A DNA stretch of 56,730 bases from Gemmatimonadota bacterium (GCA_020351855.1 CP070670.1:322259-378988), one strand, 5' to 3'. Positions 1 through 32,610 are shown, counted from the stretch's first letter. Numbers and translations: made by a program. Notes: a model not told the origin generated them from the sequence alone.

Positions 1-1861
1 ACTCGAGATGCGGCGCAGCGGAAAGCCTCAGGCGGGCGATCTGGCCGGGGGAGAGCCCGCCGGCCAGTCTCGTCGGTACCCGGACCCGGGCTTGGCGACC
101 ACGGAGCGAGGCGATCTCGAACAGGAGGTCGCCGGCACGGATTCGCTGACCGGTTCGCTCATGCAGCCGGTAGCCAAGGATCACGCCGTCGATCGGGGCC
201 GAATCTATGTGGCGACTCCGCTGCGCCTCCAGGACTCGCAGCGCCTCGAGAGCTTCAGCCAGCCTCGCCTCGCTGCCGGCAGCCGAGGCGAGGTCGCCGC
301 GAGCCGTGGCGCGGGACCGCCGGAGCCGAAGGCGCTCGATGGCCGCGCGCTGCTCGGCGGTTGCCGCCTCGAGCTGCGGGTTCCAGAGCTCGATGAGCGG
401 CGTTCCCGCCCGAACGCTGTCGCCTTCCCGAACGTACAGCCGCTCCAGGATGCCCCCTGTCTCGGCGTGGATCTGGATCCGCGGCACCGCGACGATGGTC
501 ACGGGCCCCTTGGCCCGGAAGGTCCAGGGAATGACGAAGGGGAGGGCAGCCGCGAGAACCAGGCTTGCCAGGGCCAGTGACAGGCGGCGCCGCATCCGGC
601 CGCCCCGCCACAGGGTGACGAGGGCGCTCGCAACGGATCGCGCCCGGCCCTGCCAGCGAACCAGGAAGCTGCCGATGACGGCCAACGCCACGGTCCAGGC
701 CCAAGGACCGATGAGCTTCCCGAGGAGGCTGAAGAGCCAGAAGGCGCCTACGGCGGCAAAGGCGACGCTGTATGCCAGCGCGAGTCCGCCGTAAAGCTGG
801 AAGACCCGCCGCTCACGCGGCGTGAGCCGCGGCGGCCTCGTCTCCAGCCCGAGCCCGTATCGACGCCCGAGCCAGCCCCAGTAGTCGAACGCTCTTCGGC
901 GCAGGTTGGGGATCTCCAACCAGTCAGAGAGTGCGTAGTACCCGTCCAGCGGGACGAGCGGGTTCAGGTTGGTCAGAAGGGAGAGGAACCCTCCCGCGAG
1001 CGCCGTCACAAACGCGACCTGATGGATGAGAGTCCCGGGCTCGGTGAATACCCAGGTAATGCCGGCTACGGACGCGATCAGTAGATCGCTCCACGGGCCG
1101 GCGAAGGTCACCCATAGCCGTTGCGATCGACGCTCGAAGGTCCAAGCATCGTTCGTGTTGCAGAAGAGAGCCGGTGAGAAGTAGAGCAGCATGACGCCGA
1201 TCTCATGCACTCGGCCTCCGAACCTCTTGGTGGTGAGGCCGTGCGCGAGCTCATGAGTACCTCCCAGCAAGAGGAAGGCGCCGACGAACATCGCCACCGC
1301 CGCGCCGCTCTCCAGCCGATAGAGCTCGAGCGTGCCGCCCCACATCTCGTCGAAGCGGGCGGTCACGATGGCGGTGAGCACGACGAACAGGAGGAGCGAC
1401 AGCACGACAAACTGCGGCGACCAGATCCAGCCGATGCGCCCAACGGTGCGTCCGAATAGCCGATCCGGATCCCCGAGCGAGAGGCGGAGCCTCAGCAGCG
1501 AGCCCTTCGTGCGCCGTCTCGTGCGCACCTTCCGCTCAACCCGGAGATGCTCCATGGCCATCAAGTGCTGCTCTGCGGGCGTGCGCTGAATGATCCCCTG
1601 GCGCTTGAGGCGGTGTGCGAAGTCCGCGACCTGGCCGCCGGAAACCTTGAGGTCGAGAGAGATCTCGGCCTCCGCGGCTATCTCCTCGGCCGACCTCGAC
1701 CCATCCATCAACTGGATCAGACGGGCCTCGGACTCGCCAAACTGGAAGTACTTGTGGGTATCGGGCAGTCGCAGGATGTACTGCACCTTGCCGTGGTATT
1801 CCCGGCGCACGTACTCGAGGCCATGTCGCACCCGGGGGCGGGCGTCCAGCGTCGTCTTCAA
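1..1861 (-). CDS. PqqD-like / M50 site-2 protease / HlyD fusion (3' end outside window)
   Basis: The frame is open from a TTG at 1861 to the left edge (620 residues seen). TTG overlaps the stop of the upstream adaptor gene in TTGA, so the two are translationally coupled. Residues about 1-100 resemble a PqqD-like winged helix (KYFQFGESEARLIQLMDG). Next come transmembrane segments with the zinc-protease motif HELAH (H203, E204, H207) and a second-ligand motif NPLVPLDGYY (D306), as in M50 site-2 proteases. After more membrane segments, about residue 440 onward is a HlyD-type barrel-sandwich (IHAETGGILERLYVREGDSV) with a helical hairpin. M50 enzymes cleave substrates inside membranes; HlyD domains bridge to exporters. 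A joint role in processing and exporting a peptide is inference. The C-terminus and any further operon genes lie outside the window. Confidence 0.85.
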   Translation of the reverse strand, partial: MKTTLDARPRVRHGLEYVRREYHGKVQYILRLPDTHKYFQFGESEARLIQLMDGSRSAEEIAAEAEISLDLKVSGGQVADFAHRLKRQGIIQRTPAEQHLMAMEHLRVERKVRTRRRTKGSLLRLRLSLGDPDRLFGRTVGRIGWIWSPQFVVLSLLLFVVLTAIVTARFDEMWGGTLELYRLESGAAVAMFVGAFLLLGGTHELAHGLTTKRFGGRVHEIGVMLLYFSPALFCNTNDAWTFERRSQRLWVTFAGPWSDLLIASVAGITWVFTEPGTLIHQVAFVTALAGGFLSLLTNLNPLVPLDGYYALSDWLEIPNLRRRAFDYWGWLGRRYGLGLETRPPRLTPRERRVFQLYGGLALAYSVAFAAVGAFWLFSLLGKLIGPWAWTVALAVIGSFLVRWQGRARSVASALVTLWRGGRMRRRLSLALASLVLAAALPFVIPWTFRAKGPVTIVAVPRIQIHAETGGILERLYVREGDSVRAGTPLIELWNPQLEAATAEQRAAIERLRLRRSRATARGDLASAAGSEARLAEALEALRVLEAQRSRHIDSAPIDGVILGYRLHERTGQRIRAGDLLFEIASLRGRQARVRVPTRLAGGLSPGQIARLRLSAAPHLE

Positions 1862-2796
1862 GGAACGGGGTCCTCTCTTCGGCGCGCCTCGGCACCCGGA
1901 TCCGGCGGTTTCGCAACAACTTCGGCCATGACGGAGGCACCGGGGTGGAACCCGTTTGCCTCCGGAAGTTCCACGATGACCTCGCGCGTTCCGCTCGCCG
2001 GGTCGACCGTAGGACCAATGATCGCCACATAGGCCGTGGCGGTCTGGCCGTCACCGGATCTCAGAAGCACCGGATCACCGATCCGGAACCGCGCCGATCT
2101 GTCCTCCGGAATGAGGAGGCGCGCACGCAACGGCTCGGTGGCGGTGATTCGAAACAGAGGTTCCGTCTCGCTGACCATCTGTCCTACCCGGATGTACCGC
2201 CTAGCGACGACGCCAGCGAAAGGCGCGCGAACCCTTGTCCTCGAAAGATAGAGCTCGGCTTGGCGGAGGGTGGCTTCCGCTCGTTGCGTCTCGTACTCCG
2301 TCTCTTCGAGCTCGGACGGCGTGACAATGCCGTTCTGCGCTAGGGCGCGAGCCCGCTCCAGCTTCGAGCGGGCCTCCTCCAGCCTCGGGCGGACCGCCGC
2401 CACCTCGAGTGCCGCCATCTCATCATCCAGAGTGGCCAGGAGCTGCCCCTTCGCGACCCGATCGCCCGTCTCGACGTGGATCGCGACGACGGGAAGCGCC
2501 CGGCCGGTCAGATCGTTCTCCGGCACCCGGCTATAGACATCGGCATCGCTCTCGGAGTACAGGTACGTTGCGTAGCGGTCGGCGGCGTCCGGATCGGGCC
2601 TCGGAGCGTCGAGGCGGACCCGGGGTGGGGGCGTGGTCTCGCCCGCGGCGTCCGATCGGACCTCCTCGCTACACGCGAACACCAGGGCGGCCGCGATCAC
2701 CGCGGCGAGCATTCGCACGAGGCTTTCGAGGCGTCTCGCGCCCCCTGCCTTCGGATCTCTCAGTCCTGCCTCCCGGGCGGTCATCCTCAGCGCCAA
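1858..2796 (-). CDS. HlyD/RND-type periplasmic adaptor lipoprotein
   Basis: 312 residues. The N-terminus has a hydrophobic stretch ending in a lipobox (AAALVFACSEE), so a lipid-anchored periplasmic protein is likely. The lipoyl-like half motif (VVAIHVETGDRVAKGQLLA), an alpha-helical hairpin and the return half motif (VRAPFAGVVARRYIRVGQ) are in the order typical of membrane fusion proteins, followed by a beta-barrel domain (RIGDPVLLRSGDGQT). The gene starts inside the end of the GAF-HlyD gene and ends in a TTGA overlap with the M50-HlyD gene, so all three are co-translated. No RND permease or ABC exporter is adjacent within the window; the pump partner is unknown or lies further left. The start could be the second Met (MTAREAG), 12 bp downstream. 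Confidence 0.88.
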   Translation of the reverse strand: MALRMTAREAGLRDPKAGGARRLESLVRMLAAVIAAALVFACSEEVRSDAAGETTPPPRVRLDAPRPDPDAADRYATYLYSESDADVYSRVPENDLTGRALPVVAIHVETGDRVAKGQLLATLDDEMAALEVAAVRPRLEEARSKLERARALAQNGIVTPSELEETEYETQRAEATLRQAELYLSRTRVRAPFAGVVARRYIRVGQMVSETEPLFRITATEPLRARLLIPEDRSARFRIGDPVLLRSGDGQTATAYVAIIGPTVDPASGTREVIVELPEANGFHPGASVMAEVVAKPPDPGAEARRREDPVP

Positions 2797-4688
2797 ATGT
2801 TCATGCGGGTCCAGCGCACGAGGGGACGCAGTAGCAGATAGCCGACCGGCAGGCGGGCACCGACGATCTTGGCTCGTGCGTCCAGGCCAGGCCGTAGCAG
2901 GCCTGCCGAGTTCTCCACCTCAGCGCGGACCGGCACGGTAGGCTCACCGTCGATCGCAGAGTCGGCCTGCGCCGCGATCGCAGTGACCTGGCCTACAAAG
3001 GTGTGGCCGGGTTGCGCCATCACCTTCAGGCGAACGTCCTGGTCGATCCGGACACGCTGGATGTCGCGTTCGGCCACCCACGCCTCGATCTCCAACCGGT
3101 CCGTTCTGCCGAGCACGACGAAAGTCTCGCCGGCGTCCAACCACTCCCCCAGCTTCTCGTACGGGCGAAGGGTGAGGACGACTCCGTCCACGGGAGCCCG
3201 CAGCCTTGTCCTGCCCAGCTGCTGCTCTAGTAGGGACACCATCTGCGACAGTTCCTTGGCGCTGATCTCGGCGAGGCGGGCTTCTGCCTCGTCGCCGCGC
3301 GCCCGCGCTGCTGCTGCGCTTCGGTCGGCCGCGATAAGCTCCGCACGCGTCCGGGTGAGCTGCATGCGAATGTCGTCGTCGCGAAGCGATGCGATCACCT
3401 GGCCCTGGTTGACGCGATCCCCCTCATCCACCAATACCTCGGCCAGCAAGCCGTCGACGGTCGCTCGGACCGGCATTCGGTCAGCCGGGAGCAACCGGGT
3501 GTCACGGGGCCCGATCCGTTCTGCCCAGGGGAAGGACAGAAAGCCGACCAGGAGCGCGGCGGGGAGGACCACGCGGCTCAGTAACCTCCGCCTGGGCATG
3601 GCGGCCAACCTGCGCTTCAGGGCGGCCACCGGCTCCAGAAAACCGATGAGCGGGACCTGTCCGTAAAGCTCCGCGTTCCGGATTGCGACGGAGGTCTGGT
3701 TGGCAAGAAGCTCGGCTGCCTCCCGGGCGTTCTGGCCGAGAAACTCCGCCGTGGCGGACTCCATGTAGAGAGCGCCCAACCGTCCTTCTTCATCGGCCAG
3801 CGGTATCATGCAGAGGGCGTGGATGCCGGAATCCTGGAGGTAGTCTGCAAACCCGGCCCGAATGGTCCGTGCCGGCTCTGCGTCGGCCTGGAGATCGGAC
3901 ACGTAGATGCTGTCTCCCAGTTCGGCCAGATACGCGATGAGGCGCTCGAGGTCCCGGTTCTGGTCCGACCGCGTGTCGAGCGTATCCGTTCCCGAAAGCG
4001 CGTGGAGCACGAGGCGCCCCGATTCGCTCAGGGCGATCGCTGCGCGGTCGTAGGGAATGGCCTGGCTCCCCAGATTGACGACCGAGAGCGCCAGGCGGTC
4101 GATGTCTAGCGTGGCGGTGATCTCGCGGCTGATCTCCAGCATCGCGTGCAGGTCCCGGGCGCGTTTCTCAGCGGCATGGAGCTGCGCGTTGTGGAGGGCG
4201 AGTCCTGCTGCGGAGGCAAGACCCTCGAGAAGGACGAGGTCCTGCTGGTCGAAGAGCCCTGATCCCCCCCGCTTGTTCAAGATCTGGAGCACTCCAAGGA
4301 TCTCGTTCTTGGCCTTCAGTGCTGCGGCTGCCATGGACCGGGTGGCGAAGCCGGTGGCCTCGTCGACCTGGTGCACAAAGCGAGCGTCGTCCCGGGCATC
4401 CGAAACGAGTTCGGACTCGCCGCTTACCGCTATGTCGCCGACGATTCCGGCACCGAGCGGCAGCTCGAGGCCCTGGATCTTGTGCGCGACCGGTCCCTTG
4501 GCGATGTGGCAGGTGACGTGGTCGCCCTCGCGCAGCCAGATGGAGCCCGCCTCGGCGTCCAGGAACTCCACGACGCGGTCGAACACGCGCGGCAGGAGCT
4601 CCTCCATGTCGAGCGTGGCGCTGAACTCGAGCGTCGTGCGGTACAGGAGCTCGAGATGCTCCGCGGAAAGAAGGGCTTCGTTCGACAA
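2787..4688 (-). CDS. GAF-GAF-transmembrane-HlyD fusion protein
   Basis: 633 residues from a TTG start. Residues about 12-165 form a GAF domain (SIWLREGDHVTCHIAKGP ... LGVLQILNKRGG), and about 180-345 form a second one (YDRAAIALSESGRLVLHAL ... GALYMESATAEF). A single transmembrane helix follows near 370-390 (VVLPAALLVGFLSFPW). The C-terminal third is a HlyD barrel-sandwich with coiled hairpin (GLLAEVLVDEGDRVNQGQ, RLRAPVDGVVLTLRPYEKLG). GAF domains bind small ligands or chromophores in the cytoplasm; the topology puts them inside and the adaptor part in the periplasm. It is the first gene of the three-gene set, overlapping the next by 10 bp. No kinase or cyclase output domain is present, so the adaptor itself may be the output (inference). 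Confidence 0.87.
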   Translation of the reverse strand: MSNEALLSAEHLELLYRTTLEFSATLDMEELLPRVFDRVVEFLDAEAGSIWLREGDHVTCHIAKGPVAHKIQGLELPLGAGIVGDIAVSGESELVSDARDDARFVHQVDEATGFATRSMAAAALKAKNEILGVLQILNKRGGSGLFDQQDLVLLEGLASAAGLALHNAQLHAAEKRARDLHAMLEISREITATLDIDRLALSVVNLGSQAIPYDRAAIALSESGRLVLHALSGTDTLDTRSDQNRDLERLIAYLAELGDSIYVSDLQADAEPARTIRAGFADYLQDSGIHALCMIPLADEEGRLGALYMESATAEFLGQNAREAAELLANQTSVAIRNAELYGQVPLIGFLEPVAALKRRLAAMPRRRLLSRVVLPAALLVGFLSFPWAERIGPRDTRLLPADRMPVRATVDGLLAEVLVDEGDRVNQGQVIASLRDDDIRMQLTRTRAELIAADRSAAAARARGDEAEARLAEISAKELSQMVSLLEQQLGRTRLRAPVDGVVLTLRPYEKLGEWLDAGETFVVLGRTDRLEIEAWVAERDIQRVRIDQDVRLKVMAQPGHTFVGQVTAIAAQADSAIDGEPTVPVRAEVENSAGLLRPGLDARAKIVGARLPVGYLLLRPLVRWTRMNIWR

Positions 4689-12605: not shown

Positions 12606-13850
12606 TCAAATCCCGTGGCGCTCCGCGAAGGCGGTGAGCGCCCGCTCGAAGATCTCGAGGGGCGGGCGAACCAGGCCGGCGCCGATCTGTCCGACCCCGG
12701 CCTCGCGATGGGCAATCCCCGTGTTGATTCGAGGCGTGATCCCCAGTTCGATGACCCGCCGGATATCGATGCCCGTGGGGCTGCCCCGAAAATCGAGGGC
12801 CGGAATGGTGAAGTGCTCGTGTTCGGCTGCCGTGATCTCGTACATCTCCAGCGTGGCGTTGACGGCATCGCCCGGCGTGCCGCTCACGAACCTCACGATG
12901 GCGGGAGCAGCGGCCATGGCGAACGCACCGATGCCGGCCGTCTCCGTGATCGTGCTGTCACCGATGTCGGGGTTGGCGTTGGAGTGGGAGAAGCCGCTGA
13001 AGTAGAGCCCATCGGGCGTCTGTGCGGGCGCCGTGAACCATTCGGCGCCCAGGCCACTGACCCGTATGCCGAAGTCGGTGCCATTTCGCGCCATGGCGGT
13101 CACGATCGTGCTTCCCTCGACTCCGTGGGCTGCATCAGCCATGGCCTTGCAGGCCGCCATGACGGGATTCAGGACGCTCAGCGCGTTGTCACCGAGAAAC
13201 GTCAGGACTCTCGCACGGTCCTCCGGATCGATCCGGAGGCGAGCGATCAGGGGGGAAAGCTGCTTCAGAAAAAGAAGCGATCCCGCCTTGTTCCGGTTGT
13301 GCCCCTCATCCCCCATGTGGAGCGCTTCGGCGAGGAGCGTGCGGAGGTCGATGCCCCCGGCCAGCGTGAGCGCTTCCGCCAGAATCGGTGCCATGACTTC
13401 GTTCATCCAGCGAAGCCTCTCCAGCACCTCCGGCGCGTAGGCGCCGTACCGCAGGACCCTGCCGTATCCCTCGTTGAGGGTGGAGTAGGCCCGTCCGCCG
13501 TCGGTGCGCTCCTCGATCACGTACACGGCCATCGAGGGAGAGATGACGCCGGCCATCGGACCGACGGCGGCGTGGTCGTGGCACGGGGAGAACTCGATCT
13601 CTCCGCTTCCCGCGATACGGGCGGCCTCCTGTTCGTCCGTTGCGATCCGCTCGTAGAGCAACGCCCCGACCACCGCGCCGCGCAGCGGCCCAGACATCCG
13701 CTCCCAGGCGATCGGCGGTCCCGCGTGCAGCAGAAGTCGATCGTGCATGCCGGGTATGGTGCCGGATGCCCTCTCCACCGCGGTCAGCACCGGCCGCGCC
13801 GCGATCATCCGACGCACACTCTCTGCATTGGCGTGCGAAACGTCCACCAC
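12606..13850 (-). CDS. DUF1116 family protein (YlbE/AllG-type oxamate carbamoyltransferase subunit candidate)
   Basis: 414 residues. The sequence matches the DUF1116 family by overall pattern (RERM/W...GPLRGAVVGAL near the N-terminus, SPCHDHAAVGPMAGVISPSM, and AHGVEGSTIVTAMARNGTDF). In enterobacteria the family member YlbE (AllG) joins FdrA (AllF) and YlbF (AllH) to form oxamate carbamoyltransferase in anaerobic allantoin breakdown. Here it follows FdrA by 1 bp with an AGGAGGT ribosome site before GTG 13850/13847, so partnership with FdrA is strongly supported. The AllH-type protein is not adjacent. The actual substrate is therefore open. Confidence 0.8.
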   Translation of the reverse strand: MVDVSHANAESVRRMIAARPVLTAVERASGTIPGMHDRLLLHAGPPIAWERMSGPLRGAVVGALLYERIATDEQEAARIAGSGEIEFSPCHDHAAVGPMAGVISPSMAVYVIEERTDGGRAYSTLNEGYGRVLRYGAYAPEVLERLRWMNEVMAPILAEALTLAGGIDLRTLLAEALHMGDEGHNRNKAGSLLFLKQLSPLIARLRIDPEDRARVLTFLGDNALSVLNPVMAACKAMADAAHGVEGSTIVTAMARNGTDFGIRVSGLGAEWFTAPAQTPDGLYFSGFSHSNANPDIGDSTITETAGIGAFAMAAAPAIVRFVSGTPGDAVNATLEMYEITAAEHEHFTIPALDFRGSPTGIDIRRVIELGITPRINTGIAHREAGVGQIGAGLVRPPLEIFERALTAFAERHGI

Positions 13851-31540: not shown

Positions 31541-32610
31541 CAAGGAGGCGAGGCGAGTGGTCGGTCCTGATCCTGGCGATCGGGGTCGGAGCCTGCGGCG
31601 CCGAGTCCTCGGAGGGAGCAGCGGGAAGGGGCGGTCCGCCTCCGGGCATGCCGGTCGAGGTCTCGGTGGCCACGGTGCAGACGGTCGTGGAGGCGATCTC
31701 GGCGACCGGCCAGATCGAGGCCGTTCAGTCGATCGCGCTCGGGCCGGAGGTGGAGGGGCGGATCGTCGAGATCCTGGCGCGCGAAGGAACCGAAGTCCAG
31801 CGGGGAACGCCGCTCTTCAAGGTCGATGATGCCGAGCTGAAGGCCGAGGTCGCGCGGCTGCAGGCCCAACGCGATCTCGCGGCCCAGGCGCTGCAGCGCA
31901 CGCAGGCGCTCATCGAGCAGCGAGCCACCTCGCCGGCGCAGCTGGACGAGGCCGAGGCGAATGCACGCACCACGCAGGCCGAGCTCGACCTGCTCCAGGT
32001 TCGGCTGGAGCGTACGGTGGTGCGTGCGCCTTTCTCTGGCGTCGTGGGGGAGCGCCTGGTAAGCGTCGGCGATTATGTGAGCCGGGCCACGCCGCTGACG
32101 ACGCTGCAGACGGTTAATCCGCAGCGGGCGAGCTTTCAGGTGCCGGAGCGCTACGCGGGGGCGCTCGACGTAGGCCAGACGGTGACCTTCCGGGTCGCCG
32201 CGGTCGAAGCGCGGACGTTCAGCGGGGTGGTCGAGTTCGTCGATCCGATCGTCAGCCTCCCGAGCCGCACGATCACGGTGAAGGCGCGCGTGCCGAATCC
32301 TGACCGGTACCTGAAGCCCGGCATGTTCATCGAGGCCAGCCTGGCAATCGAGGAGCGACCGGATGCGGTGGTCGTGCCGGAGGATGCCATACTCCCGCTC
32401 TCGGGCGCGGACTACGTGTGGGTCGTCTCCGGCGGGCAGGCGACCCGAATCCAGGTCGACCTGGGCGTTCGCACGCCCGGCTTCGTCGAGCTGAGGACCG
32501 GCGTGGCGGCCGGCGACACCGTCGTGGTGGGTGGGTTGGAGCGCCTGGCAGAGGGCGCTCCGGTCATGCCGATCCCGGTCGAGCGAGGTGGCGACGTACC
32601 GACTCCCTAG
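31537..32610 (+). CDS. RND periplasmic adaptor lipoprotein (MFP)
   Basis: 357 residues. Lipobox at the N-terminus (ILAIGVGACGAESS). The barrel-sandwich halves (GRIVEILAREGTEVQRGTPL and VVRAPFSGVVGERLVSVGDY) flank a helical hairpin (LAAQALQRTQALIEQRATSP), followed by a beta-barrel (GQTVTFRVAAVEARTFSG) and membrane-proximal domain. It pairs with the permease encoded immediately upstream (4-bp overlap). In many RND operons the adaptor comes first; here it follows the pump. Confidence 0.95.
   Translation: MTRRRGEWSVLILAIGVGACGAESSEGAAGRGGPPPGMPVEVSVATVQTVVEAISATGQIEAVQSIALGPEVEGRIVEILAREGTEVQRGTPLFKVDDAELKAEVARLQAQRDLAAQALQRTQALIEQRATSPAQLDEAEANARTTQAELDLLQVRLERTVVRAPFSGVVGERLVSVGDYVSRATPLTTLQTVNPQRASFQVPERYAGALDVGQTVTFRVAAVEARTFSGVVEFVDPIVSLPSRTITVKARVPNPDRYLKPGMFIEASLAIEERPDAVVVPEDAILPLSGADYVWVVSGGQATRIQVDLGVRTPGFVELRTGVAAGDTVVVGGLERLAEGAPVMPIPVERGGDVPTP

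Follow-up and report, generated by a model that had tools for sequence, protein, structure and literature searches.

RiPP recognition elements (RREs) fused to site-2 proteases are known from daptides, in which leader removal depends on the RRE and the leader carries the motif ELExMEAP (PMC10036551). This protease and its leader form the closest known pair to the system that we describe here. Among epipeptides, the M50 protease EpeP has been proposed both to cleave and to export (PMC10885120). For giant proteins, an N-terminal domain designated LEPR-XLL has been mentioned (PMC10868602). In open-licence papers we found no description of a LEERIAP tag, or of the M50-HlyD-PqqD/RRE or GAF-HlyD-M50 domain combinations that characterize the locus below.

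Our analysis started from a 56,730-nucleotide stretch of a Gemmatimonadota genome (the window; GCA_020351855.1, CP070670.1:322259-378988), a single contig flanked by two 100-N scaffold gaps within an assembly (G000) of 2.96 Mb. At its left end, three genes run leftward on the minus strand (4688-2787, 2796-1858 and 1861-2), encoding in order a tandem GAF-TM-HlyD protein, a HlyD lipoprotein and a PqqD-like/RRE-M50-HlyD protein. The three linked HlyD-bearing genes are thus where the first-pass annotation had placed them. All are complete save the 3′ end of the third, which is truncated by the gap (L003:16160-16259) abutting position 1. Genes and predicted domains are as follows.

2787..4688, minus strand: gene 1, tandem-GAF / single TM / HlyD adaptor protein, 633 aa, TTG start
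4194..4610, minus strand: GAF domain 1, residues 27-165, from a Pfam GAF match
3660..4103, minus strand: GAF domain 2, about residues 196-343, from two Pfam GAF stretches and the secondary structure of the model
3534..3593, minus strand: predicted transmembrane helix between GAF and HlyD, about residues 366-385, from the sequence and a helix at 366-385 in the model
2883..3470, minus strand: HlyD barrel-sandwich/hairpin region, residues 407-602, from a HlyD_D23 match
1858..2796, minus strand: gene 2, HlyD-family lipoprotein adaptor, start uncertain (TTG 2796, ATG 2784 or ATG 2712)
2..1861, minus strand: gene 3, RRE(PqqD-like)-M50 site-2 protease-HlyD fusion, 620 aa read, 3′ end lost in the scaffold gap
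1589..1840, minus strand: PqqD-like RRE domain, about residues 8-91, from a profile of 34 relatives and the model
1241..1255, minus strand: HELAH zinc-binding/catalytic motif, H203-E204-H207, invariant in 40 aligned relatives
941..964, minus strand: NPLVPLDG motif with the third zinc ligand, D306, invariant in 40 aligned relatives
8..517, minus strand: HlyD domain of the M50 protein, residues 449-618, HlyD_D23 53.3 bits, truncated at the window edge

The 4-nt TTGA overlap that had been reported between genes 2 and 3 is correct. The 10-bp overlap of genes 1 and 2 hinges on the TTG start at 2796, and the in-frame ATGs of gene 2 at 2784 and 2712 would abolish it. Overlap by itself is insufficient to support the fixed stoichiometry that had been read from it; it suggests coupled translation. 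It had also been proposed that partners might be read to the left of position 1. The genes there, beyond the 100-N gap, are a PrdB/GrdB-like fragment, an esterase and PDH genes, and we do not take them as partners because contiguity across the gap is uncertain.

Gene 1 matches Pfam GAF with 97.6 bits and HlyD_D23 with 74.6 bits, and its AlphaFold model (pLDDT 86) retrieves the tandem GAFs of PDE5, PDE2 and CyaB2, and also MacA, in Foldseek searches; eight trio members were aligned. Its predicted domain order is compatible with the earlier suggestion that an adaptor is itself the output of a GAF sensor. Of the loci with enough surrounding sequence, the two closest place the set next to a class III nucleotide cyclase and a Crp-type regulator, a neighbourhood that hints at a cyclic nucleotide as the GAF ligand. 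Gene 2 carries the lipobox MLAAVIAAALVFAC and matches HlyD_3 (66.9 bits) and RND_mfp (139 bits), its relatives having been aligned too.

Gene 3 has Pfam domains for Peptidase_M50 and HlyD and a weak PqqD match (15.4 bits, under the 23.4 cut-off); its relatives extend about 60-70 residues further than the window copy. The Peptidase M50 match recurs in all 40 members, and the HExxH motif and distal Asp zinc ligand expected in the membrane helices of a site-2 protease are both present. The PqqD match recurs in 11 of the 40, at best with 1.7e-4. When a profile of this region from 34 relatives was searched against 177,635 PDB sequences, the top four matches were PqqD, TfuB1, TbiB1 and PaaA, every one an RRE or RRE-bearing enzyme, with E-values (0.009-0.12) that are individually marginal. 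The AlphaFold model of gene 3 (pLDDT 87.3) places three strands and then three helices here, with pLDDT of about 82-93. Together the profiles support assignment of the N-terminal domain as a probable RRE. The daptide leader protease model NF041824 matches 40 of 40 relatives and the YydH/LiaK model 39 of 40; the protease belongs to the daptide/epipeptide leader-peptidase group.

The three-gene arrangement is conserved. A search of 100 relatives yielded eight more full-length M50 proteins, 31-51% identical over the full alignment, each with HlyD genes directly upstream. Among 22 named Gemmatimonadota loci, 21 of which could be scored for gene order, HlyD directly precedes M50 in 20 and GAF-HlyD comes before that in 17; the exceptions seen are contigs that begin inside the set or gene-calling failures. 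Seventeen of 20 loci retain the 4-bp overlap between HlyD and M50. Homologous sets are co-located rather than scattered; scattering would have counted against the first-pass annotation.

Beside the cassette, the flanks of these relatives hold one to four small open reading frames (ORFs) of 46-60 aa. They share the leader consensus vrIxLTxEQkxxIRxATGKdAxAIELsxeELEERIAP, followed by a variable tail of 5-23 residues, with conservation dropping directly past the AP. Such an ORF is present in all relative loci whose flank suffices. Across 36 distinct leaders, differences at codon positions 1, 2 and 3 (0.29/0.18/0.47) follow a protein-coding pattern; searches against Pfam and NCBIfam found no family above cut-off. 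In 395 genomes of the phylum, the M50 gene and the leader occur together in 26, the leader only in 5, the M50 gene only in 8 and neither in 356. The 26 co-occurrences compare with 2.7 expected (Fisher p=8e-29, a nominal value because related genomes are not independent), and 43 of 64 leader matches lie within 10 kb of an M50 gene. No leader ORF was detected in 8 of the 34 M50 genomes, including a diverged group (G151, G257, G304 and G360). At the other extreme, one genome (G239) has seven leader matches, five of them on contigs that bear no M50 gene; such unlinked copies, giving up to seven precursors per genome, suggest that the trio may serve several substrates.

In the window's own genome, a leader profile search of the assembly returned no match (best E=0.9), and a six-frame motif scan, which covered the window and the retrieved loci, found no leader ORF for this genome. 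A DNA-pattern scan of the assembly gave a lone match, at residue 158 within a reading frame unlikely to be a gene. In two genomes of the window's family and order (G009 and G039), the M50 gene is followed by a Crp gene and then by the leader ORF. From this gene order, the substrate site in the window genome would be expected inside the gap.

The end of the leader, LEERIAP, also marks proteins well beyond this phylum. Our scan of named genomes confirmed 354 M50 relatives, from which 80 loci were kept. Their labels include Acidobacteria, Verrucomicrobia, Planctomycetota, Rokubacteria, Nitrospirae, Zixibacteria, Bdellovibrio/Oligoflexia, Magnetococcales, Alteromonadaceae, Betaproteobacteria and others. 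The pairing of machine and tag recurs across labels of about ten phyla, some of which may err because most loci come from metagenome bins. An ORF with an N-terminal LEERIAP-type tag occurs in 62 of the 80 loci, compared with 0-1 in shuffled sequence and 0 in a real control of 163 kb. Two further loci (L153 and L176) have the ORF just past the retrieved flank, and another (L178) has the variant tag ELEARIAP; of the fifteen loci still left, ten are contigs of less than 10 kb. We also searched 11 whole genomes (49 Mb) for the tag with an exact DNA pattern. Each of its 17 matches falls at residues 7-20 of an ORF, 16 of them lie at an M50 locus (within about 11 kb), and the reversed control pattern gave none. 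The association of tag and machine across phyla is strong.

The tagged products fall into two classes. Peptides of about 45-105 aa with tails rich in Gly, Asn, Pro, Ser and His form the first, with Gly-rich members in Acidobacteria, Verrucomicrobia and others. The second, found in Bdellovibrio relatives, Magnetococcales and Alteromonadaceae, comprises surface-like proteins of 850-1,800 aa, many starting with KKLEERIAPGMxGGG-type sequences. Planctobacterium marinum has a giant protein with the form LEDRIAP, along with M50 and TolC-type genes. The LEPR-XLL domain may be comparable, since giant secreted proteins have this short LExR-type motif at their N-terminus. No model of the LEPR-XLL kind in NCBIfam matched the tagged proteins.

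Loci of the giant proteins also carry GAF-HlyD, a short HlyD and often a TolC-type gene. Up to 14 loci, chiefly from Oligoflexia, Magnetococcales and Alteromonadaceae, have TolC-type families beside the M50 gene; in those lineages, an outer-membrane factor of the kind that the first-pass annotation had suggested looking for does accompany the M50-HlyD gene. No TolC was identified in the Gemmatimonadota loci. The adaptor and outer-membrane factor of a type I or tripartite exporter are found together in those three groups, as HlyD and a TolC-type OEP. No inner-membrane pump (ABC, RND or MFS) lies in the cassette or recurs near the loci, although an unlinked pump may exist; the 80 loci have no ABC exporter near the M50 gene and show a single, distant ABC signature. 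A simple form of the system occurs in the type strain Pseudogulbenkiania subflava DSM 22618 (L205), where the predicted trimmed peptides contain GYEGQPGNQGG. Gene calling chose antisense frames in several loci, including this one, which was checked by hand.

How closely does the trio resemble the described systems? The daptide RRE-site-2 protease (DapP/MpaP, NF041824) likewise has an N-terminal RRE on an M50 intramembrane protease, daptide loci likewise encode several short precursors, and ELExMEAP aligns in the same register as ELEERIAP, with the E-L-E and A-P positions in common. However, the protease of the trio carries a fused HlyD adaptor, and giant-protein substrates exist here. We rejected daptide membership because gene 3 scores 206 bits against the NF041824 cut-off of 300 (217 bits for a Pseudogulbenkiania relative, L171), because the invariant C-terminal Thr of daptide precursors is absent in 12 aligned LEERIAP precursors, and because tailoring genes do not appear to recur: near the 80 loci, whose recurrent neighbour families were clustered and in part individually annotated, we found no recurring ABC transporter or daptide tailoring enzyme of the aminotransferase, alcohol dehydrogenase or methyltransferase kind. 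EpeP/YydH/LiaK (NF058609) is likewise an M50 protease that trims a ribosomal peptide and has been proposed to act in its export, but this model has no HlyD fusion and the window protein scores 28.5 bits against its cut-off of 225. MacA and RND adaptors share the HlyD barrel-sandwich/hairpin fold, and their partner TolC has counterparts beside the trio in several lineages; in contrast to those systems, MacB, RND and MFS pumps are missing here and the adaptors are fused to GAF sensors and a protease.

We propose, with a probability of roughly 0.6, that the trio processes substrates under the direction of a leader and exports them. The substrates would carry an N-terminal leader terminating in ELEERIAP, to which the PqqD-like RRE of the third protein would bind. 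Within or at the inner membrane, the adjacent M50 site-2 protease would then cut at the AP or just past it. The three proteins may build, from their HlyD domains, an adaptor in the periplasm that passes the trimmed product on to the outside, by way of a TolC-type channel where the lineage encodes one nearby. In Gemmatimonadota, very short peptides would result, corresponding to the tails of 5-23 aa, and elsewhere Gly-rich peptides or giant surface proteins. The tandem GAFs of gene 1 would sense a small molecule in the cytoplasm, plausibly a cyclic nucleotide, and gate the adaptor accordingly. Leader processing by the cassette is well supported at the sequence level; the cleavage site, export, its energy source and GAF control are steps that we infer. 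The fused HlyD domain would make the link of cutting to export explicit. Of the roles that the first-pass annotation had entertained, peptide processing and export is strongly favoured by the tagged peptide genes, the RRE-like profile and the leader-peptidase grouping of the protease.

The same observations bear on other readings. The LEERIAP peptides could be enzymatically modified precursors of a RiPP natural-product pathway, with the trio merely trimming and shipping the finished molecule. RRE-site-2 protease pairs in daptides and M50 proteases in epipeptides provide precedents, the gene after M50 in Pseudogulbenkiania encodes a 2OG-Fe(II) oxygenase, and in 15 loci M50 is followed by an uncharacterized family of about 320 aa. 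We nevertheless consider such a pathway unlikely, given that modification enzymes are not recurrent beside Gemmatimonadota trios, that the tails are very short or of low complexity and that the identical tag sits on proteins of 850-1,800 aa. Equally doubtful in our estimate is a peptide-pheromone system in Gemmatimonadota, in which the 5-23-aa tails are released signals that are read or controlled by the GAF adaptor and a nearby Crp-type regulator, kinase or BTAD regulator. Short, variable tails, multiple precursors per genome and the adjoining Crp/cyclase or kinase/BTAD regulators would all suit it; however, no receptor was identified, the tails differ within a single genome and the regulators vary among loci.

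Least probable of these, and in our judgement improbable outright, is an ordinary multi-adaptor efflux set with LEERIAP peptides as small accessory or regulatory subunits, not substrates. The HlyD domains do match RND/MacA adaptors, and small peptides could act as RRE-binding regulators. But the protease site is invariant in 40 sequences, and the giant LEERIAP proteins mean that tagged proteins cannot all be small subunits. We rejected drug efflux because no pump family, whether RND, MFS or ABC, lies in the cassette or recurs at the loci.

The trio is real and conserved, and represents an apparently undescribed variation on the RRE-site-2-protease theme. More tentatively, and at rather less than even odds, LEERIAP may be the sorting signal of an undescribed multi-phylum secretion pathway, in which an intramembrane protease, fused to a receptor domain and an adaptor of its own, takes the place of the usual pump, and the cargo can be as small as a 10-residue peptide or as large as a surface protein of 1,800 residues. 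If true, the system would join RiPP leader peptidases with Gram-negative protein secretion. It would also supply a simple rule for finding members, an N-terminal LEERIAP and a linked RRE-M50-HlyD gene, with which to reach secreted peptides and giant surface proteins overlooked by current family models. Whether a site-2 protease can serve as the gate into an export channel, an idea that we otherwise met only for EpeP (PMC10885120), would thereby become testable.

Directly after the M50-HlyD gene, which encodes the proposed leader peptidase, 15 fetched loci carry a gene from a single uncharacterised family, which encodes a protein of about 320 aa and lies approximately 2.3–2.9 kb past the M50 start (L165, L167, L170, L174, L175, L178, L181, L182, L185, L187, L188, L189, L191, L195 and L204). 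Two members searched against Pfam gave no match, and one of these two gave none in NCBIfam. Further neighbours accompany M50-HlyD or the whole trio (GAF-TM-HlyD, HlyD lipoprotein and PqqD-like RRE-M50-HlyD) at other loci:

L041:11552-14854, class III nucleotide cyclase/AAA protein, adjoining the trio with a Crp-type regulator
L129:5028-6845, class III nucleotide cyclase/AAA protein, adjoining the trio with a Crp-type regulator
L171:3445-4125, 2OG-Fe(II) oxygenase-type gene after M50-HlyD in Pseudogulbenkiania, a family search match
L205:12535-13371, 2OG-Fe(II) oxygenase-type gene after M50-HlyD in Pseudogulbenkiania

The product of the Pseudogulbenkiania oxygenase-type gene might hydroxylate the Gly-rich tagged peptides.

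The window is exactly one contig, flanked at both ends (positions 1 and 56730) by scaffold gaps of 100 N, and an additional N run lies near position 13400 of its own fetched region (L003:13400). It holds a further HlyD-type adaptor gene at about 31711-32205 on the plus strand (G000:C1:353969-354463), in a position unrelated to the trio.

No leader ORF was detectable in the four Gemmatimonadota genomes that form a diverged M50 subgroup (G151, G257, G304 and G360), which may use a different tag. The Alteromonadaceae genome G405, the source of locus L200, encodes a second giant LEDRIAP protein at C30:8407, on a different contig from its M50 gene; this protein is a possible substrate in trans.
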